A stretch of DNA of 64,000 bases from an uncultured Acidaminococcus sp. (GTDB lineage Bacteria > Bacillota > Negativicutes > Acidaminococcales > Acidaminococcaceae): positions 1-64,000 of the forward strand of contig OMYF01000002.1 in NCBI GenBank assembly GCA_900315205.1, in the 5' to 3' direction. Shown piece by piece: positions 7,221-20,102 of the stretch. The position numbers and the translations under genes were made by a program. Each line of letters opens with the position of its first letter. Within the stretch, counting starts at the first letter, position 1. The notes under the pieces were generated by a model. The model made no database searches, was not told the DNA's origin, and saw only the letters and a program-made list of their open reading frames with translations.

Positions 7221-9647
7221 ATGGAGCATAAGGCGGATTATAAACTGATTGCGCTGGGTCTGTGCCTGTCGTCCCTGGCAGCGGGAGGAACGGCAGCGGC
7301 GAGTCCGGAGATTCCCGATTCCGTCAGTTTTGAGCAGCACACGTCGGCCGGCTCGAAGAAAGGCTATGGGGGTACTTCCAATGCTGTGAAAGTCAATGCG
7401 GATGGGACATATACGGTGACCTATGGCACCCAGTTCGATCCCCATCCGCAGAGCAGCCTGCTGAAGCCGGGCGGTGATGTTTCTGTCACGATCACCTCTG
7501 AACTGAATGAGCCCAATGCGGCAGTCAATCCCAAAAATAAGAAACAGAGCGGTTCCATCTGGGCTCTTGGACTCAGCAAAGGTGTGCACCTGAATCATGT
7601 TGACATCCAGTTAAAAGGGGATTCCTATGATTACAGCTATGACTGGGGCGGAAATCAGAAGCTGCGCAGCATCACTGCATACCGTACCGATCAGATCCAG
7701 ATCGATGATTACCGGCAGGAGAACGATCTGACCGTACATGCGGCAACGGAAGTCACGTCTGTCCGTGCCGGTGGTTCCACTATCAATATTGGAAACTGTT
7801 ATATCAGGAGTTACGTCACCAAAGGAGACGATTTTGAAGATGGTGCCTATCTGGCCAATAACGGGCTGTATGCCTTGAATGAAGGCGGTGTGGGCATTAT
7901 CAATGTGACGGGGAAACATGTCTATATCGATACGAACAGCAACAATTTTTCCAAACTGTATGACAGTGATACGTATGAGACCGATGTTTCTAAAAATGAT
8001 GCTGTAAGCGGCAAATATGGCGGGACTGTCAATATCAATGTGGACGGTACTGCAGAAGACGTGGCCATCATTGGCAACCTTGATGCCAAACAGGGCACGA
8101 TCAATATGAAACTTGCCAATGCTCAGTCCTACTGGCACGGATCGCAGGCAAATTATTCCGATACCAAAAAGCTGGGCACGCTGAATCTTTCGATTTCCAA
8201 TGGGGCCCAGTGGGTGCCGGACGGTTATCAGCAGAATCGGGTCAATGGAGAAACGGATCCTGTGGGGACCGAACGGATCACGGCCCTTACCTTACAGGAC
8301 GGCGGCATCGTCAACCTGCATGGCTTCGACAGTTTCACCGGGGAGAAGACGGCTGTCAAAGAACTCCATGTGGATGAATTGAAAGGCAGCGGCGGTATTT
8401 TCCGGATGGATGTGAATATGAAAGCCACACCCGATGGCGGACGCAACGGCAGCGATTTTGTCTATGTGGCAAAAGGCGAAGGCACCCATTATATCCAGCC
8501 CGTCGATCCGCAGAGGCTCACGGGCCTGACGACGCCTGTCTGGGTAGCCGACGCGGATGCCGATGTCTCTTTTGAAGGTTATACAAAACAGGAAACGATC
8601 GATGAAGGCTTTCTCTACGATTATATCCCGACGGTGGAAAAAAATGTGGTAGCTGCAGATACCGCACAGAATCAATATGGCAACAACTGGTACATCACAG
8701 CTGTCAGGGAACAGACGGAGCCCGTCGTCCCGGTCATCGAGGCCAGCATGGTCAATACGTATGCCACGGAGCGGGCCCGGCTGGAAATCGACAGCCTGAA
8801 CAAGCGCATGGGCGAACTCCGTGACTATAAAGATACGGAGACCGGCCTGTGGGTCCGTCATAAGAGCGGCCAAATCGAAGGCAGTGGCTCGAACTGGTTC
8901 AAAAATACATATCATTTCAACCAGATCGGTTTCGACAGACAAATCCACAATGACAGAGATGGGAGAGCATGGTATGGGATCGCCGCCCATTACAGCGATG
9001 ATGATGCTGCTTATCATCAGGGCCATGGCTCGGAAAAAAGTTACGGCGCATCACTCTACGCCAGCTGGGAAGGGAATAAGGGCCATTACAGTGATTATGT
9101 GCTGAAATACAGCCATTTGACCAATAAGTTCACGGCCTGTGATCAAACAGGAAGCGCAGCCGGCGACTATGACAACAATGCGCTGAGCCTCAGTGCGGAG
9201 TATGGCCGTAAAAACCGGTTCGGCCATGGCTGGATGTTCGAACCGCAGGCTGAACTGACTTATACTCATATTTCGGGTGCTGACTATACCATGAGCAACG
9301 GGATCCGGGTAAATCAGGACAATAACAACAGCCTCATCGGGCGTATGGGGTTCCGGTTCGGCCGTGAATATCATCTGGACAATCCGGCAAAACGCGGCCA
9401 GTGGTACGTCAAACTGGATCTGCTCCATGAATTTTCCGGTGATCTGGGCATTGCCATGACGAGTGCCGACGGCAGCCAGTATTATTCGCATTCGACTGAC
9501 GGCTCCGATACCTGGCTGGCCTGGGGCTTTGGCTGCAATCTGTCCCTGTCCGATCATTCCTGGTTCTATGCGGATATCGAGCGCTCTGCCATGGGCGATA
9601 TCAACACAAACTGGCAGATCGACGCCGGGCTGCGGTTCGCCTTTTAA
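7221..9647 (+). CDS. autotransporter outer membrane beta-barrel protein
   Basis: An 808-residue type V secreted protein. A signal peptide occupies about residues 1-30 (LIALGLCLSSLAAGG, with TAAA before the cleavage point). The passenger (about 30-515) is rich in Gly, Asn, Asp, Thr and repeated short strands such as GGTVNINVDGTAEDVAIIGN and GTLNLSISNGA, typical of a beta-helix of the pertactin type. The last 270 residues form the barrel: an ATERARLEIDSLNKRMGELRD linker helix, then GLWVRHKSG, aromatic-rich strands and a terminal phenylalanine (DAGLRFAF), the usual recognition signal of the BAM machine. No protease motif was found in the passenger, so adhesion is likelier than enzymatic activity. 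The ATG at 7221 is chosen over an in-frame upstream ATG because GGGGGGAG precedes it and the signal peptide follows directly. Confidence 0.93.
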   Translation: MEHKADYKLIALGLCLSSLAAGGTAAASPEIPDSVSFEQHTSAGSKKGYGGTSNAVKVNADGTYTVTYGTQFDPHPQSSLLKPGGDVSVTITSELNEPNAAVNPKNKKQSGSIWALGLSKGVHLNHVDIQLKGDSYDYSYDWGGNQKLRSITAYRTDQIQIDDYRQENDLTVHAATEVTSVRAGGSTINIGNCYIRSYVTKGDDFEDGAYLANNGLYALNEGGVGIINVTGKHVYIDTNSNNFSKLYDSDTYETDVSKNDAVSGKYGGTVNINVDGTAEDVAIIGNLDAKQGTINMKLANAQSYWHGSQANYSDTKKLGTLNLSISNGAQWVPDGYQQNRVNGETDPVGTERITALTLQDGGIVNLHGFDSFTGEKTAVKELHVDELKGSGGIFRMDVNMKATPDGGRNGSDFVYVAKGEGTHYIQPVDPQRLTGLTTPVWVADADADVSFEGYTKQETIDEGFLYDYIPTVEKNVVAADTAQNQYGNNWYITAVREQTEPVVPVIEASMVNTYATERARLEIDSLNKRMGELRDYKDTETGLWVRHKSGQIEGSGSNWFKNTYHFNQIGFDRQIHNDRDGRAWYGIAAHYSDDDAAYHQGHGSEKSYGASLYASWEGNKGHYSDYVLKYSHLTNKFTACDQTGSAAGDYDNNALSLSAEYGRKNRFGHGWMFEPQAELTYTHISGADYTMSNGIRVNQDNNNSLIGRMGFRFGREYHLDNPAKRGQWYVKLDLLHEFSGDLGIAMTSADGSQYYSHSTDGSDTWLAWGFGCNLSLSDHSWFYADIERSAMGDINTNWQIDAGLRFAF

Positions 9648-9710
9648 CCGCATGCAGGAAAAAAGGGCACGTCATTTTCACTGGAAAAAAATAAAACCAT
9701 ACAGGGATAC

Positions 9711-9751
9711 AAGCCGGACGGCACGGATGCATGGATCACACCGTCCGGCTT
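9711..9751 (+). terminator. hairpin after the autotransporter
   Basis: AAGCCGGACGG (9711-9721) pairs perfectly with CCGTCCGGCTT (9741-9751) around a 19-base loop. The T-run behind it is weak, so termination may be inefficient or need a factor. Confidence 0.6.
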
Positions 9752-9851
9752 CTGTCATTGTTCCATCCAGCCAGCACGGCCAGCGGCCGGGCAGCCGGAC
9801 TTGCCGCAGCGAAGGGACGGCCCTGCTTATGGTCCAGCTGGAAAATCATGA

Positions 9852-9913
9852 ATGTAAGAGTTGAAATTACAATTGATTTTGTTATAATAAAGATGTAATT
9901 TAATATATTACAT
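9852..9913 (+). promoter_or_regulatory. Rrf2 gene promoter between two palindromic operators
   Basis: A promoter TTGAAA (9861-9866), 16 bases, TATAAT (9883-9888) is bracketed by two 21-bp palindromes. The upstream one, ATGTAA-N8-ATTACAA (9852-9872), overlaps the -35. The downstream one, ATGTAAT-N7-ATTACAT (9893-9913), is near perfect and covers the start point. Their centres are 41 bases apart, about four helical turns. The layout fits autorepression by the Rrf2 protein encoded next. Confidence 0.7.
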
Positions 9914-9945
9914 AAAACCGAAAAGTCCCGGGGAGGGGGGTATCC

Positions 9946-10383
9946 ATGCAGATTTCTACAAAGTTTACCATCGCTGTGCATTTGCTGACGGCGGCCCGCT
10001 ATTTTGAGAATGAGACAAAAATTACGAGTCAGTTCCTGGCTTCCAGTATTGGCTCCAATCCTGTGATCATCCGGAACATCATGCTCCAGCTGCAGGAAGC
10101 GGGCATCATCGATGTAAAGCGCGGGCCCGGAGGCATTACGCTGAGACGGCCTCTCTCAGAAATTACCTATCTCGATGTCTATAAGGCAGTGGAAACAGGC
10201 AGTCGGGAGGATCTGTTCCGGTTCCACGAAAATCCGAACCCGAAGTGTCCTGTCGGCAGACAGATCCATCAGGCGCTCGACAGTTCCCTGGAAACCATCC
10301 AGGCTGATTTTGAAAAAGATCTGGCTTCGCATACTGTCCAGGAAGTTTATGACCGGATCCGGCAAGCAGAGGAGATGGACTGA
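9946..10383 (+). CDS. Rrf2 family transcriptional regulator (YwnA-like)
   Basis: A 145-residue winged-helix regulator. The N-terminus MQISTKFTIAVHLLTAARYF, the helix-turn-helix around residues 26-48 (TSQFLASSIGSNPVIIRNIM) and the wing GGITLRRPLSEITYLDVYKAVE are characteristic of the Rrf2 family. IscR-type members bind an iron-sulphur cluster through three cysteines; this protein has only one (KCPVGRQ, about residue 102), so it is not a cluster sensor of that type, and the lone cysteine could be a redox switch. GGGGAGGGGG before the ATG is a strong ribosome site. Palindromes at its own promoter and at the YwnB-like gene are its likely sites. Closest family name is YwnA of Bacillus. Confidence 0.92.
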   Translation: MQISTKFTIAVHLLTAARYFENETKITSQFLASSIGSNPVIIRNIMLQLQEAGIIDVKRGPGGITLRRPLSEITYLDVYKAVETGSREDLFRFHENPNPKCPVGRQIHQALDSSLETIQADFEKDLASHTVQEVYDRIRQAEEMD

Positions 10384-10702
10384 AAGGATGTCCTGATCCG
10401 GGACGAGGCTGGCAGTTCAGGCAAATTGAAAAAATTTCCACGCTTTTTTCAATCATTTCACGTTTTCCTTGCCGGATTTCTCCTATAATGACAGGAGTAC
10501 AGCCTGCCGGGATAGGGAACGGATTTCCTGTACCGCCGTATTTGCTGTCCTTCCGCTTCCAGCAAAAGTCCGGCCAGCGGAGAAGCAGGACGGAAATTTG
10601 TTTTTTCCGGTCATGGCAGTATGGTTGTGAAAGGGGAAACTGCTTCATTGCTCCATCGGGATTTTCACCATTTTGTGGACATTGACGGAAAGGATGATCG
10701 TT
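10384..10702 (+). other. gene-less stretch before the flavodoxin-type gene
   Basis: No gene is supported in these 319 bases. A TATAAT at 10494-10499 follows a poor -35 candidate and would give the reductase mRNA a leader of about 200 bases. A small CGGAAA/TTTCCG hairpin lies near 10591-10609. None of the ATGTAAT operator words found at the Rrf2 gene occur here. Confidence 0.4.
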
Positions 10703-11371
10703 ATGAAACTGATTGCTCTGAACGGCAGTCCGCGCCGCGCCGGCAACACGGCCGTCCTCTTGAAGGAAGCGCTGGCGGGCGCTGCTTCCGGCGGCGCAGA
10801 AATTTCTTTTGTGGATCTGTATTCTCTGGAGTATAAAGGCTGTATCAGCTGTTTTGCCTGCAAACGGAAAGGCCTGGCAAAGGGGTTCTGTTATGTACAG
10901 GATGCCTTGACGCCCGTGCTGGCGGAGGTCCGTGGGGCGGATGCCGTGATTTTCGGTTCTCCCATCTATCATATGAATCTTACATCGGGGCTGCAGGCGT
11001 TCCTGGAACGGTTTCTTTTTCCGACCAATATCTACAGTACGGAAATTCCGTCCGTACTGGGGAAAAAGATGCCGTCGGCCTTTTTCTATACGATGAACGT
11101 GACCGGAAAGCAGGCGGAGAAAGTCCATCTCCAGGACAGCCTGCAGCCCTATGAGGATTTCACCTCCAAAGCGCTGGGGCTTGTTCCGCACAGGCTCTGT
11201 GCTTATAATACACTGCAGTTTGATGATTACACAAAATATGAATCGGCAAAATTTTCCGAAGCGGACAAGAGAGCCTATCAGGAAAAATACGGGCCCGTTT
11301 GTCTGAAGCAGGCTTTTGACCTGGGAGCCGCCCTCGTAAAAGAAGCAGAGGCGCTTACGCAGACCTGCTGA
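10703..11371 (+). CDS. flavodoxin-fold NAD(P)H-dependent oxidoreductase
   Basis: A 222-residue FMN-binding reductase of the NADPH-dependent FMN reductase/iron-sulphur flavoprotein group. LIALNGSPRRAGNTAVLL is the FMN phosphate loop, and FGSPIYHMNLTSGLQAFLERF is the second flavin-contacting segment. Between them a cysteine cluster GCISCFACKRKG...FCYVQD (about residues 47-64) resembles the compact cysteine motif seen in iron-sulphur flavoproteins, although the spacing differs from the classical one. The ATG at 10703 has GGAAAGGA ahead of it. Substrate is unknown; quinone, azo or disulphide reduction are typical for the fold. Confidence 0.88.
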   Translation: MKLIALNGSPRRAGNTAVLLKEALAGAASGGAEISFVDLYSLEYKGCISCFACKRKGLAKGFCYVQDALTPVLAEVRGADAVIFGSPIYHMNLTSGLQAFLERFLFPTNIYSTEIPSVLGKKMPSAFFYTMNVTGKQAEKVHLQDSLQPYEDFTSKALGLVPHRLCAYNTLQFDDYTKYESAKFSEADKRAYQEKYGPVCLKQAFDLGAALVKEAEALTQTC

Positions 11372-11412
11372 AGAAAGGTTCTGCCCATCTGTATGAAAAA
11401 AGGAGTCCAGTA

Positions 11413-11889
11413 ATGAGATTATTGTTCCGTCAGAGGATTTTTTCCTGGTTCGACAGCTATGATATCTATGATGATGACGGCAATACGGTTTTTGTGGTGA
11501 AAGGACAGCTGGCGTGGGGACACTGCCTTAAGATCTGCGATGCCTCCGGCCGGGAGCTTGGCATGGTGAAGGAAAAAATCATTACCCTGCTGCCTCGGTT
11601 CACGCTGTATGAGAGCGGCAGGCGGATCGGCCAGGTGAAGAAGAATCTGACCCTGTTTTCACCATCCTTTACGATGGATTTCAAAGGCTGGAAAGCAAAA
11701 GGCAATTTCATGGAATGGGATTATACCATCCGGGACAGAAAGGGCAGTCCGGTGGCCATCGTCAGCAAGGAACTGCTCCGTCTGACAGATACGTATGTGC
11801 TGGATATCGTAAATCCTGCAGATGCGCTCTATGTACTGATGTTTGCCCTTGCCATGGATGCAGAAAAATGCAGCCGCAGCAAAGACTGA
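11413..11889 (+). CDS. LURP-one-related (YxjI-like) protein
   Basis: A 158-residue protein of the LURP-one/Tubby-like barrel family. Successive beta-strand pairs are visible: MRLLFRQRIFSWFDSYDIYD, VFVVKGQLAWGHCLKICD, ELGMVKEKIITLLPRFTLYE, RRIGQVKKNLTLFSPSFTM, then WDYTIRDRKGSPVAIVSKE and a final hydrophobic helix (ALYVLMFALAMDAE). The bacterial family (Bacillus YxjI) has no settled function; a membrane-associated lipid- or phosphoinositide-like binding role is only suggested by the fold. It starts 41 bases after the reductase gene and may be co-transcribed with it. Confidence 0.85.
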   Translation: MRLLFRQRIFSWFDSYDIYDDDGNTVFVVKGQLAWGHCLKICDASGRELGMVKEKIITLLPRFTLYESGRRIGQVKKNLTLFSPSFTMDFKGWKAKGNFMEWDYTIRDRKGSPVAIVSKELLRLTDTYVLDIVNPADALYVLMFALAMDAEKCSRSKD

Positions 11890-12097
11890 AAGGGACCGGG
11901 AAGAAAAGCGCAGCGCCCGTACCGGCGGCGTGTGCGCTGCTTGCTTCCGGATATCCTGTTTGCGGACAGGATCCGGTATTCTCCAGGACAGGGAATAAGG
12001 TTTTGACGAAAACAGGTTAGGAGTAGTAAACTATATGGTATGTAAATGAATGCTGTACAAACGGAACGTATCTGACGGAAAGAAAGGGAGAACTGAG

Positions 12098-12178
12098 ATG
12101 AAGATCCATAAAACCTTTGCCTGGCTGACAGTGGTGTGCTTTTGTGTGACCATGATTTCCGGATATAAAAAGAAGTAA
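12098..12178 (+). CDS. small 26-residue membrane peptide
   Basis: A short open frame with a good ribosome site (AAGGGAG, about seven bases before ATG). The peptide begins MKIHKTFAWL, has one hydrophobic segment of about 15 residues containing CFC, and ends in a basic ISGYKKK. This N-basic, hydrophobic, C-basic layout is that of single-pass bacterial micropeptides. A region of dyad symmetry and then a 24-bp terminator follow directly, so it seems to have its own transcription unit. I do not recognise it. Conservation in related genomes would decide whether it is real. Confidence 0.5.
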   Translation: MKIHKTFAWLTVVCFCVTMISGYKKK

Positions 12179-12251
12179 TGATATACCCTGCGGCATGAGG
12201 GATTGCCGGAACCGCGGCGGCTCCGGATCTGCTGCGGAGCAGCAGGATCCG

Positions 12252-12304
12252 GCAAAAAGGAAGATCCGTGACCGGAAAAACCGGTCACGGATCTTCCTTT
12301 TTGC
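12252..12304 (+). terminator. perfect 24-bp bidirectional terminator
   Basis: A perfect inverted repeat with 24-base arms (12252-12275 and 12281-12304) flanks a five-A loop. Core arms read AAGATCCGTGACCGG / CCGGTCACGGATCTT, and A- and T-runs at the two edges allow termination in either direction. A second, weaker hairpin (CCGGATC...GATCCGG) lies immediately upstream at about 12221-12251. The rest of 12179-12517 holds no supported gene. Confidence 0.9.
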
Positions 12305-12517
12305 TGTTTTGCATACCTGTTTCATCGCTGCTTGTGTTTAGCCGGGACAAACCGGAACAGAAGGTTCTGTGCTGCTGCCGTCGCAAATGGCACCGTGCGT
12401 ATCCCGAGCTGTCCGTCCGTTCTCTTTATGCGTCCGTTTTTTGTCCATTTTTCGGAACGGTGCTGCATTCTATGGTACAATGAGGACAGAATCAAATGTA
12501 CAGGAGGAGAATGGATC

Positions 12518-12925
12518 TTGCAAACCATTACGATTGTATCCGCGGCGATTTTGAAAGGGGACCGGGTCCTTGTCAGAGAGCAGTGTGAAAATACGGAGCA
12601 GAGCCACTGGGAATTTCCGGGCGGCCGGGTGGAAGAAGGCGAGCAGCCCGTGTCTGCGCTCTTTCGCATCATCCGGAAAGAACTGGCTGCTGAAGTCCAG
12701 GTGGACAGACCGCTCCTGCAGGTCACGGACAGCGAGCCGGAAGGCCGGGTGATCCGGGAATGTTATCTCTGTACAGCGCCGGCCGATCAGCTGAAACTGC
12801 TCGAACAGGAGAACACCCGCTGGCTGACGTTCCGCGATCTGGATCATATGGAATGGCAGGAAGCTGACCGCCGGATCGCAGAAGCCGTGAAGCAGTTCTT
12901 TAAGCAGGCAGAGAGGATGCTGTGA
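12518..12925 (+). CDS. Nudix hydrolase with atypical Nudix box
   Basis: A 135-residue protein of the MutT/CTP-pyrophosphohydrolase type. ITIVSAAILKGDRVLVREQ begins the fold, SHWEFPGGRVEEGEQP is the start of the Nudix box, and WLTFRDLDHMEWQEADRRIAEAV is the usual C-terminal part. The catalytic helix departs from consensus: after GGRVEEGEQP the family has about six residues and then RELxEE, whereas here ALFRIIRKELAAEV fits only if three or four residues are inserted, leaving KE-L-x-x-E. Activity may therefore be altered or lost. A TTG at 12518 is taken as start because AGGAGGAG at 12502-12509 is correctly spaced and the fold begins directly there. Confidence 0.82.
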   Translation: MQTITIVSAAILKGDRVLVREQCENTEQSHWEFPGGRVEEGEQPVSALFRIIRKELAAEVQVDRPLLQVTDSEPEGRVIRECYLCTAPADQLKLLEQENTRWLTFRDLDHMEWQEADRRIAEAVKQFFKQAERML

Positions 12926-13035: not shown

Positions 13036-16000
13036 ATGAACGCTATGGAACAAAAAATGACTTTGTGGGAGGCCCTGCAGGGATCTTTGGGCGATCCTGC
13101 TTTTTGTAAAGAGCTGGGCCTTACTCCGGAGCAGATGCTGCAGCGGGTCCGTGAGCTCCGCCTGGAGGAAGCCTGTGTGCTGATCGAGAATGCGGCCGAA
13201 CCGGACGGGCGGTTTTCCGCCGGAGCCGTACTGGGCATCCTGAGAGGGTTTCTGCCTTCTCTGGGCGATGAACCGCAGAAAGGATGGCTGCGGGATTGTT
13301 ATGATTTCCTTCTGCGGCAGATCTTCCCGGAAACAACAGAACCGGAGCCTCCGGAAGCCGCTGCCCGGTACGGGACCGGCCGCCGCATCCTGCTCCAGAT
13401 CCTGCGGGGTGTGTATCATTATGAAAAGTTCCACTGTCCTTTCGATCCCAGACGGAATTTTGTCCTCATGAGTGCCAGGGAAGTCCGCCAGGAGCATTAT
13501 ACCCGGGAGTATCTGCGGCTCCGCACTCTGGTGCGGGAGATGTACCTTTATGAGTTCATGCGCCTGGGGACGGAAGTGACACCGTTCAATGCTCTGGGCC
13601 ATATCGGCGGCGTGACGTATGTGGCAACCTTCATGGCGCGGCAGCTGCACCAGCAGGGAGTGCCCGTCGACGTGGCTCTCATCGCGGGAGCGGCAGCAGT
13701 CCATGATATCGGCAAATACGGCTGCAAGAAGGGCGAAGAGAAGCGGGTCCCGTATCTGCATTATTACTATACGGAACTGTTCTGCGAACGGGAAGGGCTG
13801 CCCCAGATGGGACATATCGCAGCCAACCATTCTGTCTGGGATCTCGAACTGGAAAACCTTTCCGTCGAGTCTCTGCTGCTCATCTATGCGGATTTCAGGG
13901 TCAAAAGTTACTGGAACAAACAGCACCAGGAAATCATCCACTTCTATACCCTGAAGGAAGCATTCGACATCATCCTCAGCAAGCTGGATGATGTGGACAG
14001 TGCCAAGCGCCAGCGTTACCAGAAGGTATATGGCAAGCTCGCGGATTTTGAGGCTTACATGCTGGAACTGGGCGTAACGGTGGAACTGCCCGTCTCGTTC
14101 TCCCAGGCCCCAGCCGCCGCAAAGGTCCGGAAGCCCCGCGAAAAGATGCTGATGGAAGGGACGGAAGTGGTGCAGCAGCTGAAATATTCCGCCATTGCCC
14201 ACAATATCCAGCTGATGAGCATTTTCCGCAGTGAAAGCGATTTCGGCAATCTCATCGAATCAGCCCGCAGCGAGCAGAACTGGAAAAGCCTGCGCACCTA
14301 TATCAGCATCTTCGAAGAGTATTCGACGTATATGACAGAGCAGCAGAAGCTGATGACACTGAAGTTCCTCTTTGAACTGCTGAGCCATCACGAGGAAGAT
14401 ATCCGGGTCCAGGCGGCGGCCCTGATGGGCAGGATCATTGCCAATTTCAACGAGCGCTATACGAAGGAACTGCCCAAAGGCGTGCTGCTGCCCCGGAAAA
14501 AAGTCACCAACCTGACGCTGTTCAGACAGTATACGGCTCTCATCATCGATCCGGGGCGGCGTTACACCCAGCAGCACAAGACCTGGATCGGATCCTGCCT
14601 GGGGCCTTTTGTCCGGTCAGTCCTGGCCACGCGGTACGAGCGGCTGGGAACGGCCGTTGCCAATATCGCCGAGGACAAGCATCCTACTGCGCCGTATCTG
14701 GCCGTACTCGAGGAGTATTACAAGACCGCTTCCCCTTTGCCCGAACAGAGGATGATCCTGCTGCAGGCGCTGCTGTCCCTGCGTCCTGAAGATCTTACGG
14801 AGAGTTTCTGCCAGATCGTGAAGACATACCTTGCAACGGCCCTGCGGGACAGCAATACGATTGCCCGGATCGCCGCTCTCTACTGCAATCACCATCTCTT
14901 CAGGAAAGAAGAGGGGGAACAGGTCTTTATCCAGCAGCTGCTCCGGGTCATGCATCTGCCCGAGGGTCCTCAGCAGTTTGCAGAAAAAGAAAGTAGCCTC
15001 TTTCTGGAGGACCTGAAGACCGGTACGCACTGGCTGGTCAAGATCGCCAATATCCATCTCATGTGCCATGCCCTGAAACGGCAGCAGGAACGGGGCAATG
15101 TGATGCATCTCGGCATGCACCTGTGCAACCTGGTGAAGGTCAGCGAATACCTCGCTGTGCGTCAGGCCGCGGGGGAGGCTCTGCTTGACATTGCTGGTTC
15201 CATGACCTATGCCCAGCGCAATGAAATGGCAGTGGAGCTGTTCAACGGCCTGGAGATCGGGGACCTGCAGATTGCCAAATATGTGCCGGAATATCTGGGG
15301 AAGATGATCCTGAAGCTGCTGCCGGGAGAACTGGATGAATTTGTCAGTACGCTCCAGGAGGAAATCGACTCCACCAACTTCCAGCTGGCAACGGCGGCTG
15401 TCAATACGATCGGTGTGGTCCTGGAGAATTTCCGGCAGTTTGACAGCCAGTTCCCCCGGGAAAAAGAGAAAAATGAAAAACGGCAGCTGCGGCTGCTTTA
15501 TGCCATCCTGCGGGCCTATGCCCACTACAATAAGGAACTCAGCAGGGACGCATTCCGGGACCTTGGTACGTATATCTTCCACAGCCCGGTGATGCCGGAA
15601 GCACAGAAAGATTTCCTCTTTATCCACAGCTGCAAGAAAATCTGGGTCCTGCTGAATGAAAATACAGAAAACATGCTGGACTTCTACAGCAATGCGGCTG
15701 TCCTGAACCATCTGTATCGGTACATCGGGCGGGCCGAATCAAGCCACGGCTCCTTTGCCTTTACTCCGGAGAAAAAAGTCTGTTTCTATCCCGGTACATT
15801 CGATCCTTTCAGCAGCGGCCACAAGGCGGTTGCCAAAAGGATCCGGGACATGGGATTCGTGGTGTACCTGGCCCTTGACGAATTTTCCTGGTCCAAACAT
15901 ACACAGCCCCGCCTGATGCGGCGCAAGATCATGAATATGTCCGTGGCGGACACGGAAAATATCTATCCGTTTTCGGAGAATCTGCCCGTGAACATCGCCA

Positions 16001-17973
16001 ATCCGGATGATGTCAGGAAACTGAAGCAGATTTTTGCCGACAAAGATCTGTACATTGCCGTAGGATCCGATGTGGTGGAAAATGCTTCGGCTTACCGTCT
16101 CGATCCGACACCGGATTCCATCCATACGGTGAACCATATCATCTTTGAGCGGGAGACCCGGGAAAGTGCCAACTGGTACACGGATGCGCCCGCCGCCAAA
16201 CTGAAGGAAAAAGAGACGGAAAAGAAGATCCAGGGAGATATCATCCATCTGAGGCTCGATAAATTCTACGAGGATATCAGCTCCACCCGGATCCGTGAAA
16301 ATATCGACCAGAACCGGGATATTTCCGCTCTGATCGATCCGGTAGCCCAGAATTTCATCTATGCCAACAATCTGTATCTGCGCGAGCCGGCCTATAAGCA
16401 TGTGCTGGAAGCCCGGGAAATCGGCATCGGGGAATTCAAGGCCCGGACCTGGGAACATCTGGCCCCGCTGCAGCCGAAGCTCGAGGAGATGGGGGCCAAT
16501 CCGCTGCTGCTGAAGCGCTATCTGGAGTGGCAGGAGAGGGAAGGGATATGCCGGGTCCGTTCCCAGTATGTGGATACGGGGGACAAGGACAAGCGCATCG
16601 TTGCTTTCGGCGCAGTGCACCAGGTCCCCATGCGGGATCTGCTGATGGAATTCCGGGATCCCCGCGTGGCAGAGCATGTCCGCGAGGAAGCTGCCGGGCG
16701 CATTGCTTCGCTGGGGTATTTTTACGTCGACGAGGACAGCCGCATATCCAATCCGGGCGAGATCCTGCTGGCGGAAATGCTGACGGAGCTGATCAACAGG
16801 GACTTTACCTATGTGGTCTACCATCCGGTGGATCCGTCCGGCTACAATGAACGGGCTTTTACGGCACTGACCCGCCAGGGGTTTGTGGATATCGCACCGG
16901 AAGGTTCATCCCATCCGCTCTATGCAGTGCATCTGGAATCGCCGGTAGTGATTTTCCGCGACGTGGAGACCACCATCAAGAATCCCTTCAATAAAAATAT
17001 CCGGGTGCAAAGGGCCCTGGACAAGGCGCACAACAACCTGCTCAGCGTGATGCGGAAAATCTATCCGAGCAAACTGATCCTGTCCTTCAATACCAGTGCC
17101 ATGCACTACCGCATCATCCACAAAGTGGCGCGCATCAACGGCGTGCCGACTCTGGAAGACCCGGAAAAACGCCGCGGCCCGTATATGACCGTGCCCTTCG
17201 GCAAGGCCCTGAGCAGCGTGCTCGTGCCCAATACGGTAACGAAGGCACTGCATATCGAAAAATATTTTAACCGGGCCGTAAAGGGCTTCAGCCTGGCCGA
17301 AGCGCACCATTATGCAAAAGTGGACAACCAGGTGAAGACCATCAAATCTTTCCACCGTCCTGTCATCCTGATCGATGATCTGCTGGAAAAGGGACACCGG
17401 ATGCGGATGCTGACACCGTACCTCAAAAAGAACGATGTGGAAGTCAAGGAAGTGCTTGTCGGCGTCATGACCGGATCGGCCATGGATCTGATGGCCCAGC
17501 AGGGCATGCGGTGCGAGTGTGCCTATTTCCTGCCTTCTCTGGAGATGTGGCTGAACGAGCGGGACTGTTATCCTTTCATCGGCGGGGACAGTATCGACAA
17601 TGCCAACAACTACAGCGGGTACGACCGGAATCCGTCGGTCAACCTGATCCTGCCCTATGTAAAACCCCAGTTCATCCACCACGGCGACACGGACGCAGCA
17701 TACAGCTATTCCCTGACCTGTCTGCAGAATGCCCGGCTGATCATGGAAACACTGCAGGATGAATACCAGGCTCTCTACGAAAAGCGCCTGACCCTGAAGC
17801 GGCTTGGTGAAGTCATCACGGTGCCCCGGATCCCGGACATCGATATCGGTGTACTCTTCGATGCCAATATGGATCCCACAAGATTCATTGAAAATGATAT
17901 CGAACGGCTTGTGCGTCTGCGCTGGGGCGATACGGGCTGGAAGAATTATCTTAAAAACCGGGGCGGCGAATGA
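13036..17973 (+). CDS. giant HD / adenylyltransferase / phosphoribosyltransferase-like fusion
   Basis: A 1645-residue soluble protein with at least three recognisable enzyme units. Residues about 180-300 form an HD hydrolase: H189, the H223-D224 pair (AAVHDIGKYG), H260, H265 and D286 (YADFR). Residues 350-900 look all-helical and HEAT-like. At 916-1090 is a nucleotidyltransferase of the NadD/CoaD superfamily, with FYPGTFDPFSSGH (918-930) and ISSTRIR (1081-1087). A mixed region with GNAT-like character follows, then at about 1340-1600 a phosphoribosyltransferase-like domain with the PRPP loop VILIDDLLEKGHR. NadD is often paired or fused with the HD protein YqeK, so a role in NAD or dinucleotide metabolism is an inference. 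The ATG at 13036 follows a modest GGGAGA. It heads a three-gene unit. Confidence 0.82.
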   Translation: MNAMEQKMTLWEALQGSLGDPAFCKELGLTPEQMLQRVRELRLEEACVLIENAAEPDGRFSAGAVLGILRGFLPSLGDEPQKGWLRDCYDFLLRQIFPETTEPEPPEAAARYGTGRRILLQILRGVYHYEKFHCPFDPRRNFVLMSAREVRQEHYTREYLRLRTLVREMYLYEFMRLGTEVTPFNALGHIGGVTYVATFMARQLHQQGVPVDVALIAGAAAVHDIGKYGCKKGEEKRVPYLHYYYTELFCEREGLPQMGHIAANHSVWDLELENLSVESLLLIYADFRVKSYWNKQHQEIIHFYTLKEAFDIILSKLDDVDSAKRQRYQKVYGKLADFEAYMLELGVTVELPVSFSQAPAAAKVRKPREKMLMEGTEVVQQLKYSAIAHNIQLMSIFRSESDFGNLIESARSEQNWKSLRTYISIFEEYSTYMTEQQKLMTLKFLFELLSHHEEDIRVQAAALMGRIIANFNERYTKELPKGVLLPRKKVTNLTLFRQYTALIIDPGRRYTQQHKTWIGSCLGPFVRSVLATRYERLGTAVANIAEDKHPTAPYLAVLEEYYKTASPLPEQRMILLQALLSLRPEDLTESFCQIVKTYLATALRDSNTIARIAALYCNHHLFRKEEGEQVFIQQLLRVMHLPEGPQQFAEKESSLFLEDLKTGTHWLVKIANIHLMCHALKRQQERGNVMHLGMHLCNLVKVSEYLAVRQAAGEALLDIAGSMTYAQRNEMAVELFNGLEIGDLQIAKYVPEYLGKMILKLLPGELDEFVSTLQEEIDSTNFQLATAAVNTIGVVLENFRQFDSQFPREKEKNEKRQLRLLYAILRAYAHYNKELSRDAFRDLGTYIFHSPVMPEAQKDFLFIHSCKKIWVLLNENTENMLDFYSNAAVLNHLYRYIGRAESSHGSFAFTPEKKVCFYPGTFDPFSSGHKAVAKRIRDMGFVVYLALDEFSWSKHTQPRLMRRKIMNMSVADTENIYPFSENLPVNIANPDDVRKLKQIFADKDLYIAVGSDVVENASAYRLDPTPDSIHTVNHIIFERETRESANWYTDAPAAKLKEKETEKKIQGDIIHLRLDKFYEDISSTRIRENIDQNRDISALIDPVAQNFIYANNLYLREPAYKHVLEAREIGIGEFKARTWEHLAPLQPKLEEMGANPLLLKRYLEWQEREGICRVRSQYVDTGDKDKRIVAFGAVHQVPMRDLLMEFRDPRVAEHVREEAAGRIASLGYFYVDEDSRISNPGEILLAEMLTELINRDFTYVVYHPVDPSGYNERAFTALTRQGFVDIAPEGSSHPLYAVHLESPVVIFRDVETTIKNPFNKNIRVQRALDKAHNNLLSVMRKIYPSKLILSFNTSAMHYRIIHKVARINGVPTLEDPEKRRGPYMTVPFGKALSSVLVPNTVTKALHIEKYFNRAVKGFSLAEAHHYAKVDNQVKTIKSFHRPVILIDDLLEKGHRMRMLTPYLKKNDVEVKEVLVGVMTGSAMDLMAQQGMRCECAYFLPSLEMWLNERDCYPFIGGDSIDNANNYSGYDRNPSVNLILPYVKPQFIHHGDTDAAYSYSLTCLQNARLIMETLQDEYQALYEKRLTLKRLGEVITVPRIPDIDIGVLFDANMDPTRFIENDIERLVRLRWGDTGWKNYLKNRGGE

Positions 17974-18006
17974 CCCGCTCCGGCTTGCGGAAGGAGAGCG
18001 ATTGTT

Positions 18007-18990
18007 TTGACTGACCATTGCTGCCATATCAGTGATCTGCCCGCCGAGGCGGGGGTGCAGCAGCCCCTTTCCCTGAAGGGACGGCCGGCACTGCGGGAAA
18101 AGAACCGTGTCCATATCCTTGCCCTGGGCGATGTGGGCAGGACGATGCTTGTCGGGCTCAGGCTGCTGGGTGCTGACAGGATCGCTTCAATCGGAATCTG
18201 CGATCTGAATGCAAAGAACCTGCAGCGGCTGGAGATTGAAATCAATCAGATCCGTTATCCCTTTGCCTCGGGAGAACGGATACTGCCGCCGGTGGATATC
18301 ATCACGGGAAAAGATTTGTTTACGTGTGATGTATTCATCTTCTGTGCAACCAAAGGCACGCCGCCCATCGGAGCCACAGGCGATATGCGCATGGCCCAGC
18401 TGGCGGCCAACAGCGGGCTGGTGCGGCATTTCGGAGAGCTTGCCAAAGCGGCGGGATTCAAAGGACTGGCCTGCATCGTGTCCGATCCGGTGGATAACCT
18501 GTGCCGCGCCTTCCTGGAAAGCTCGGATCTGAAGCCCTTCCAGGTGCAGGGATACGGTCTTGGCGTGATGAATGCCCGAGCCTGCTACTATGCGGAAAAA
18601 GATCCCCGTCTGACTCATTATCTGACGGAAGGACGGGCCTTCGGGCCTCACGGGCAGGATCTCGTCATTGCGGACAGCCTGATCCATTATAATGATGCCC
18701 TGTCCCGGGAACTGACGCAGAAAGTCGTGAACTGCAACCTGGCTGTGCGTGATCTCGGCTACAAACCGTATATCGCGCCGGCCCTTTCCAGTGCGGCCAT
18801 CTCCATTTTGCTGACCCTGCGGGGCGAATGGCATTACGGTTCCCTGTACCTGGGAGACGGGACCCGCGGTGCCTTTCTGGGCATCAAAAACCGTCTGACC
18901 GCAGGCGGCTTTGAATATGAAGACGCGGCGCTGTGTCCGCAGCTGTATGACCGGATCCGGAATGCCTACATTAATTTGTGCAATGCGTGA
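18007..18990 (+). CDS. lactate/malate dehydrogenase-like protein
   Basis: A 327-residue Rossmann dehydrogenase related to the LDH/MDH family. It has VHILALGDVGRTMLVGLRLLG (NAD loop, with GDVG where GxGxxG is usual), an acidic strand end at ICDLNAKN that would select NAD over NADP, a loop with TGDMRMAQLAANSG corresponding to the substrate arginine loop, SDPVDNLCRAF for the family's N-P-V-D segment, and H215 in FGPHGQDL for the catalytic histidine. The changes from consensus suggest a different hydroxyacid substrate or loss of classical activity. The TTG at 18007 is chosen from GGAAGGAGAG upstream; it begins 33 bases after the giant gene and is surely in the same operon. Confidence 0.8.
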   Translation: MTDHCCHISDLPAEAGVQQPLSLKGRPALREKNRVHILALGDVGRTMLVGLRLLGADRIASIGICDLNAKNLQRLEIEINQIRYPFASGERILPPVDIITGKDLFTCDVFIFCATKGTPPIGATGDMRMAQLAANSGLVRHFGELAKAAGFKGLACIVSDPVDNLCRAFLESSDLKPFQVQGYGLGVMNARACYYAEKDPRLTHYLTEGRAFGPHGQDLVIADSLIHYNDALSRELTQKVVNCNLAVRDLGYKPYIAPALSSAAISILLTLRGEWHYGSLYLGDGTRGAFLGIKNRLTAGGFEYEDAALCPQLYDRIRNAYINLCNA

Positions 18991-19004
18991 AAGAAGGCTT
19001 TACG

Positions 19005-20102
19005 ATGCTCTATGTCATTCAGATGGGCTGGGATGAAGGCGGAAATACCCGGCGCCTGGACGGTGTCCTTATGAAAGCGCTTCGGGACGTGGACCATCTG
19101 GCAGTGCGGAGTGCAGAAGCTTTTGCCGGGCTTTTCCCGGATGTGCTGCCGGGGAAAGAGACACCGCGCCGACAGGTCCTGTTCGCCGTGAACCTGGCGC
19201 GCGGCGGGATCAGTGTGGGGTTTGCCCACATCATCGCTTACATTTCCCAGCATCACCACTGTCTGGAAAACTGTGTAGGAAGCGTGATCGTGGATGGAGC
19301 GGAGGAACTCTTTACCAAAAAAGCCGGCCGGGAGATGATCTTCATCGCCAACCGGTCCGGCTGCGGTTTTCCCGGCGCCCCTCTGGTGGAGGCGACGGGT
19401 TCCCTGTACAATTTCAACATCCGGGCCAAAGTGCAGGGAATTGCCAATCAGGAAGCCTATGAAAATGCCGTGAAAAAGCTGATCGGCAATTTGCTGGCTT
19501 TTCAGGGTGCACCGGAACCGGCAGGCGGGCGGCACCGGATTGCCCTGTTCCACGCCAGCAGCCGCAGGACTTCCAATACACTCCTTCTGTGGAGCATGAT
19601 CCGCCAGTCCATCGGTGATGCAGCGTCCATCCGCGAAGTGAGCCTGCGCAACGGCACTGTCGTGGACTGCCGGGGCTGCAGCTATGAAGCCTGTCTGCAC
19701 TTTGGAGAAAAAGGCGACTGCTTTTACGGCGGCATCATGGTGGAAGAAGGGTATCCGGCCATCACCGAAAGCGATACCCTGGTTTTTGCCTGTCCCAACT
19801 ACAATGATGCCGTGAGTGCAAACATCATGGCTTTCTTTAACCGCATGACCGCTCTCTTTCGTTCGGACTTCAAGGAATTTGCCAAAAAACGCGTCTTTGC
19901 TCTCGTCGTGTCCGGCTACAGCGGCGGCGATATCGTGGCTGAACAGATCATCGATGCCCTGAACTGCAACAAGCATTTTATCCTGCCGCCCCATTTTGCT
20001 CTGATGGAAACGGCCAATGCCCCCGGCAGCATCCTTGCCTGTAAAGGCATCGCACAGCGGGCTGCGGAGATGGCGGAAAGGATCGTGGGAAAAATCAGGT
20101 AA
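19005..20102 (+). CDS. two-part flavodoxin-family protein
   Basis: A 365-residue protein. The second half (about 175-365) is a flavodoxin-like FMN reductase: IALFHASSRRTSNTLLLW as phosphate loop, then CRGCSYEACLHFGEKGDC with four cysteines, and FACPNYNDAVSANIMAFFNR as flavin-binding segment. The first 170 residues (starting LYVIQMGWDEGGNTRRLDG and containing FAVNLARGGISVGF and VGSVIVDGAEELFTKKAG) do not match a domain I know, though spacing suggests a second alpha/beta unit. AAGAAGG precedes the ATG at 19005, which lies 14 bases after the dehydrogenase stop. With its neighbours it forms a nucleotide-plus-redox operon of unknown purpose. Confidence 0.8.
   Translation: MLYVIQMGWDEGGNTRRLDGVLMKALRDVDHLAVRSAEAFAGLFPDVLPGKETPRRQVLFAVNLARGGISVGFAHIIAYISQHHHCLENCVGSVIVDGAEELFTKKAGREMIFIANRSGCGFPGAPLVEATGSLYNFNIRAKVQGIANQEAYENAVKKLIGNLLAFQGAPEPAGGRHRIALFHASSRRTSNTLLLWSMIRQSIGDAASIREVSLRNGTVVDCRGCSYEACLHFGEKGDCFYGGIMVEEGYPAITESDTLVFACPNYNDAVSANIMAFFNRMTALFRSDFKEFAKKRVFALVVSGYSGGDIVAEQIIDALNCNKHFILPPHFALMETANAPGSILACKGIAQRAAEMAERIVGKIR

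Follow-up and report, generated by a model that had tools for sequence, protein, structure and literature searches.

Fusions of a NadD-type adenylyltransferase to an HD hydrolase have a described precedent in mycoplasma. There, the NadD-YqeK protein JCVISYN3A_0380 is made up wholly of these two domains; NAD synthesis cannot do without its NadD domain, and YqeK, the HD domain, cleaves wrong analogues of NaAD by hydrolysis (PMC9426524). The large protein described here also carries a NadD-type adenylyltransferase and an HD hydrolase in one chain, but the HD domain comes first, ~550 mostly helical residues lie between the two, GNAT and phosphoribosyltransferase (PRTase) folds are added, and the carrier genomes tested have a separate NadD. 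A second described family bears on one of its operon partners: iron-sulfur flavoproteins (Isf) combine an FMN_red-type flavodoxin domain with four conserved cysteines, as the operon flavoprotein does, and hold them in the compact motif CX2CX2CX5-7C (PMC3164229).

The window (the whole 64,000-nucleotide stretch analysed) encodes a polypeptide in which our computations place HD, helical, NadD-type, GNAT-fold and type I PRTase-fold domains, followed on the same strand by two genes for redox-type proteins:

13036..17973, + strand: five-domain large protein, 1645 aa (ORF)
13582..14055, + strand: HD hydrolase domain, residues ~183-340 (invariant residues, AlphaFold model)
14086..15750, + strand: long middle region, residues ~351-905 (HEAT/IFRD/GCN1 matches, all under cut-off)
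15772..16380, + strand: NadD/CoaD-type nucleotidyltransferase domain, residues 913-1115 (Pfam, TIGR00482, VIA)
16405..16944, + strand: GNAT-fold domain lacking the Q/RxxGxG/A acyl-CoA loop, residues ~1124-1303 (VIA, alignment)
17038..17595, + strand: type I PRTase-fold domain, residues ~1335-1520 (Foldseek, Pfam)
17362..17400, + strand: PRPP-loop-like motif VILIDDLLEKGHR, residues 1443-1455 (alignment of 27 sequences)
18007..18990, + strand: gene for an LDH/MDH-like Rossmann protein (ORF, TTG start at 18007)
18978..20102, + strand: gene for a two-part flavoprotein (ORF, likely start ATG 19005)

The genes are closely packed. A gap of 33 bases separates the end of the large gene from the TTG start of the LDH-like gene, and 14 bases separate the stop of the latter (18990) from the flavoprotein ATG, a longer GTG-start ORF running from 18978. 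These ORF coordinates, lengths and spacings agree with a sequence-only reading of the same DNA, which had also named an HD hydrolase (H189, H223-D224, D286), a NadD/CoaD-type nucleotidyltransferase, a PRTase-like domain with a PRPP loop, an LDH/MDH-like Rossmann protein with a conserved histidine and a two-part flavoprotein with four cysteines. Each assignment held, on the evidence given below, and the motifs that it named in the large protein are present and conserved across the aligned relatives. Neither of the two outcomes that it had named as refuting came about: gene neighbourhood showed the three-gene order to be conserved in related genomes (~22 loci), and structure prediction placed the nucleotidyltransferase and PRPP-like motifs in their proper folds. 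The part of the large protein that it had missed is the GNAT-fold domain. Promoter and terminator scans of the operon gave a yield about equal to that of shuffled sequence. A NUDIX hydrolase gene (12332-12925, + strand; E 5.7e-10) lies upstream of the large gene in the same orientation, its end 110 bases away; the relatives tested gave no such gene close to their operons.

The window genome is of the Acidaminococcus type: among named relatives the closest are Acidaminococcus sequences, with 78-83% identity over the large protein. Orthologues of 1568-1677 aa were found at about 25 loci. Comparison of the large gene with its nearest relatives gave dN ~0.11-0.14 and dS ~1, the latter being close to saturation. 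Since dN lies far below dS and the order large gene, LDH-like gene, flavoprotein gene is kept in ~22 loci, down to ~31-37% identity, the three-gene unit is not a chance arrangement. All 11 near relatives from the first scan (L002-L012) have this order, as do the distant loci L041-L045, L062, L064, L066 and L067. By domain, dN is lowest in the PRTase domain (0.054-0.077), followed by the NadD-like domain (0.085-0.086), and highest in the GNAT domain (0.13-0.23). These rates indicate strong purifying selection on the large gene, above all on its PRTase and NadD-like domains.

The large protein is co-inherited with the LDH-like protein and the flavoprotein. Indeed, the large gene occurs in 8/398 genomes of the phylum sample and the LDH-like gene in exactly those eight (P ~7e-17 under independence, ignoring phylogeny), and across 22 loci the pairwise distances for each of the three proteins track those for the others (r 0.87-0.91), a correlation much of which reflects shared ancestry. 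The large gene can nevertheless stand apart from its partners in one genus: G465 has the LDH-flavoprotein pair and the large gene on different contigs, and some relatives in that genus have no partner gene beside the large gene. Carriers include Acidaminococcus, Megasphaera, Eubacterium pyruvativorans and Acetoanaerobium. Flanks vary by lineage, with no further pathway gene recurring beyond the three. In Megasphaera-type loci, genes named by eye as PEP-synthase-like, CcpN-like and YqfL-type PPDK regulator lie upstream (L002/L047, L003, L009, L012, L046), or a phosphotransacetylase, also named by eye from sequence, lies in the flanks (L004, L007, L008, L011, L048); Acidaminococcus loci have neither set. 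Carriage as phage or plasmid cargo was rejected: there was no phage record, the matches in viral contigs were all short and confined to the NadD motif, and the sole match to the operon in the plasmid collection is a 2.6-Mb Acetoanaerobium record of chromosome-like size.

The HD domain appears catalytically equipped in its residues. H189, H223, D224, H242, H260, H265 and D286 are invariant in 27 sequences, and the H-HD-H-H-D metal ligand set, with ligands assigned by motif, is present. Pfam gave a weak HD match (residues 188-286), and an AlphaFold model of residues 105-350 (pLDDT 88.7) confirms, at the level of a predicted structure, an HD hydrolase fold for residues ~183-340. Most top structural matches of this model are to YhaM, YqeK, HD-GYP, PgpH and PDE (VIA Z 8.6-10.6); YqeK structures, at VIA Z ~9-10.3, are tied with YhaM, HD-GYP and PgpH, values too near to one another to pick a family. 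Foldseek returned no match to the model at E < 0.001, and a simple HD-domain sequence alignment to YqeK was misaligned in its second half, with the YqeK His out of register. Between the HD and NadD-like domains, residues ~351-905 probably consist of HEAT-type helical repeats, as the weak HEAT-type profile matches suggest.

The NadD-like domain takes the NadD fold in a predicted structure. When residues 900-1645 were modelled with AlphaFold (25-row alignment, pLDDT 78.9, pTM 0.78), residues 913-1115 proved to match Bacillus anthracis NadD (3e27_D) at VIA Z 17.6, with an rmsd of 2.5 over 175 residues and 18% identity, and Pfam CTP_transf_like (cytidylyltransferase-like) matches residues 917-1089 (E 2.7e-10). 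PGTFDPF..xH, DEFSWSK and ISSTxIR vary little or not at all in the aligned relatives. The domain thus shares with NadD (TIGR00482) its fold, the ATP-site Lys (of DEFSWSK) and ISSTxIR, but NadD has HxGH where the large proteins have SxGH or TxGH, a Ser/Thr at the first His that is also found in CoaD, and the conserved Trp of NadD is Tyr in the large proteins compared. TIGR00482 scored the large protein of the window genome at 41.6 bits, below the equivalog cut-off of 112.45, versus 167.5 bits for a canonical NadD encoded by a separate gene in the same genome, which also has a NadD-YqeK gene pair of the usual kind elsewhere. A canonical NadD above cut-off was present in 14/14 genomes tested, which led us to reject the idea that the large protein replaces the cell's own NadD. 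Since every genome tested also has an ordinary NadD, we regard the NadD-like domain as an extra, divergent copy beside it.

The two C-terminal folds are recognizable but altered in their signature loops. The GNAT region (model residues 225-402) matches NAA60 (5icw_C) at VIA Z 13.4 with an rmsd of 3.3 over 153 aligned residues; the alignment has no Q/RxxGxG/A acyl-CoA loop between strand and helix, and the domain probably serves in binding or has a structural role. For a type I PRTase fold the support comes from a single Foldseek comparison, in which the 900-1645 model matches B. subtilis xanthine PRTase (XPRT; E 3.6e-5, ~170 columns). Its predicted placement at ~1335-1520 rests on the motif and on Pfam Pribosyltran, which matches 12/25 members of the large-protein family (best E 5e-4). 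Like type I PRTases such as xanthine PRTase, the large protein has an acidic pair in its PRPP loop (D1447 and D1448, each 26/27), but the full loop DDxxxTGxT is not conserved: the Asp pair is retained and the TGxT phosphate loop has become KGxR (K1452 22/27, G1453 26/27, R1455 26/27). PRTase catalysis may therefore be lost or altered. Nicotinate and nicotinamide are substrates of a class of PRTase other than type I, so the base, if any, is probably not nicotinate.

The two partner proteins show a comparable mixture of conservation and departure. Profile comparison with solved structures links the LDH-like protein to LDH/MDH-family enzymes (E down to 3.1e-12). Pfam Ldh_1_N gives 22.1 bits for the window protein, under the cut-off of 27, and matches 23/23 family members at E up to 0.5. 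The Rossmann domain, the catalytic His and the substrate-binding Arg of the L-lactate/malate dehydrogenase superfamily are all represented, H215 and R191 being invariant, but the Asp-His catalytic pair is incomplete, the alignments placing an invariant Met (M188) at the position of the catalytic Asp. The flavoprotein contains in its second half an FMN_red domain (E 3.4e-16) with four invariant cysteines (C231, C234, C239, C248). Their spacing, CX2CX4CX8C, differs from that of Isf, as does the presence of an extra N-terminal half; an iron-sulfur cluster is plausible.

From folds, co-occurrence and gene order, all of them computed, we infer reactions, a substrate and a product. The reading that we favour, tentatively and with less than even confidence, is a multienzyme making an NAD-like or other ribotide-derived dinucleotide, with the HD domain for quality control and a pair of redox proteins dedicated to the pathway. 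The PRTase domain would make or bind a 5'-phosphoribosyl compound, which the NadD-like domain would join to AMP from ATP to yield a dinucleotide; the HD domain would hydrolyse wrong or surplus product, as YqeK does in the mycoplasma fusion; the helical region would keep the domains together; and the LDH-like protein and flavoprotein could make, use or reduce the dinucleotide. Chemistry on a dinucleotide is argued for by the intact HD and NadD-like sites. The sequence-only reading had guessed at the making, salvage or degradation of an NAD- or flavin-like dinucleotide, a guess that fits the parts and is weakened by the KGxR loop, the loss of the LDH-like catalytic Asp and the type I class of the PRTase fold. 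That loop and the Met at the LDH Asp also count against a dinucleotide pathway in general, as do the lack of a fourth recurring gene and the split contigs in one genome. A more specific version, which we consider unlikely, is an undescribed dinucleotide cofactor or signal, in which a non-nicotinamide base would be ribosylated from PRPP, adenylylated by the NadD-like domain to an NAD analogue and cleaned by the HD domain, to serve as the LDH-like protein and flavoprotein's own redox carrier.

The same domains could instead serve metabolite damage control alone, the large protein recognizing abnormal NAD-type or dinucleoside compounds (wrong base or nucleotide) and destroying or remaking them. 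The HD domain would cleave, the NadD-like and PRTase-like domains would sort or recycle the pieces, and the redox pair would handle damaged reduced forms. NadD-YqeK fusions act in this manner in minimal mycoplasma (PMC9426524), the normal NadD in all genomes tested and the NadD-YqeK gene pair of the window genome agree with such a role, and sporadic distribution (8/398) is expected of an accessory function. However, housekeeping repair systems are usually more widespread, and the need for a strongly conserved PRTase domain is left unexplained; we find this reading doubtful. Binding roles are what the GNAT domain without its CoA loop and the altered PRPP loop suggest, and together with the long helical scaffold, which suits signalling, they bring to mind a sensor or regulator. 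In such a protein the NadD-like, GNAT and PRTase folds would bind nucleotides and PRPP, and the scaffold would relay this to the HD domain or the two redox partners, so adjusting central carbon or redox metabolism. The Megasphaera-type neighbours named by eye (PEP-synthase-like, CcpN-like and YqfL-type, or phosphotransacetylase) point the same way, but they are lineage-specific and absent in Acidaminococcus, and the invariant HD and NadD-like active-site residues argue for catalysis; we find a sensor as doubtful as damage control alone.

Far less probable still is a Ter-type stress or conflict system making a nucleoside-like signal. In one relative (L040:1382-7801 and 8004-12872), a 39%-identical large protein adjoins three TerD genes and TelA, YceG-domain and C-C bond lyase genes, and PRTases are described as components of Ter systems, which are said to produce a nucleoside-type metabolite (PMC7824862). 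However, the same-genus relatives of L040 have no ter neighbours, and in the ter-bearing L040 genome itself the LDH-like and flavoprotein pair is on another contig. We rejected the Ter-system membership prompted by this locus, TerD being absent from 8/9 operon-bearing genomes tested, including that of the window. PADLOC defence models gave no match to the operon at E up to 0.01, which also speaks against a Ter system and led us to reject an anti-phage defence system. With intact HD and NadD-like sites, a PRTase domain that is strongly conserved but altered, and the mycoplasma NadD-YqeK fusion as the nearest experimental precedent, we favour dinucleotide synthesis with quality control over damage control alone, a sensor and a Ter-type system.

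Dinucleotide synthesis with quality control is, in these terms, an elaboration of a known NadD-HD fusion. Each part belongs to a known superfamily, and none reached the named-family equivalog level in the scans made. The combination of domains and genes appears undescribed: among 5.39 million open-access papers, the scope of the search, with subscription papers outside it, no description of the large protein or operon was found. Five nucleotide/acyl-transfer enzyme folds and two redox partners, in cells that also keep a normal NAD pathway, suggest a role in nucleotide or cofactor metabolism that we could not match to the known biochemistry of Acidaminococcus, Megasphaera, Eubacterium pyruvativorans and Acetoanaerobium. 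Synthesis or policing of an NAD-like compound is the probable task, and for some anaerobic gut and fermenter bacteria this could mean a novel cofactor, a novel sensor or a novel route of NAD quality control.

Two minor features of individual loci complete the survey. In Anaeroglobus geminatus (L008:8977-13834), a frame break or sequencing error divides the large gene into ORFs of 1498 and 103 aa. In two genomes of one lineage, a dihydrofolate-reductase-like gene lies directly 3' of the flavoprotein gene (L064:16270-16749 and L077:2761-3237).
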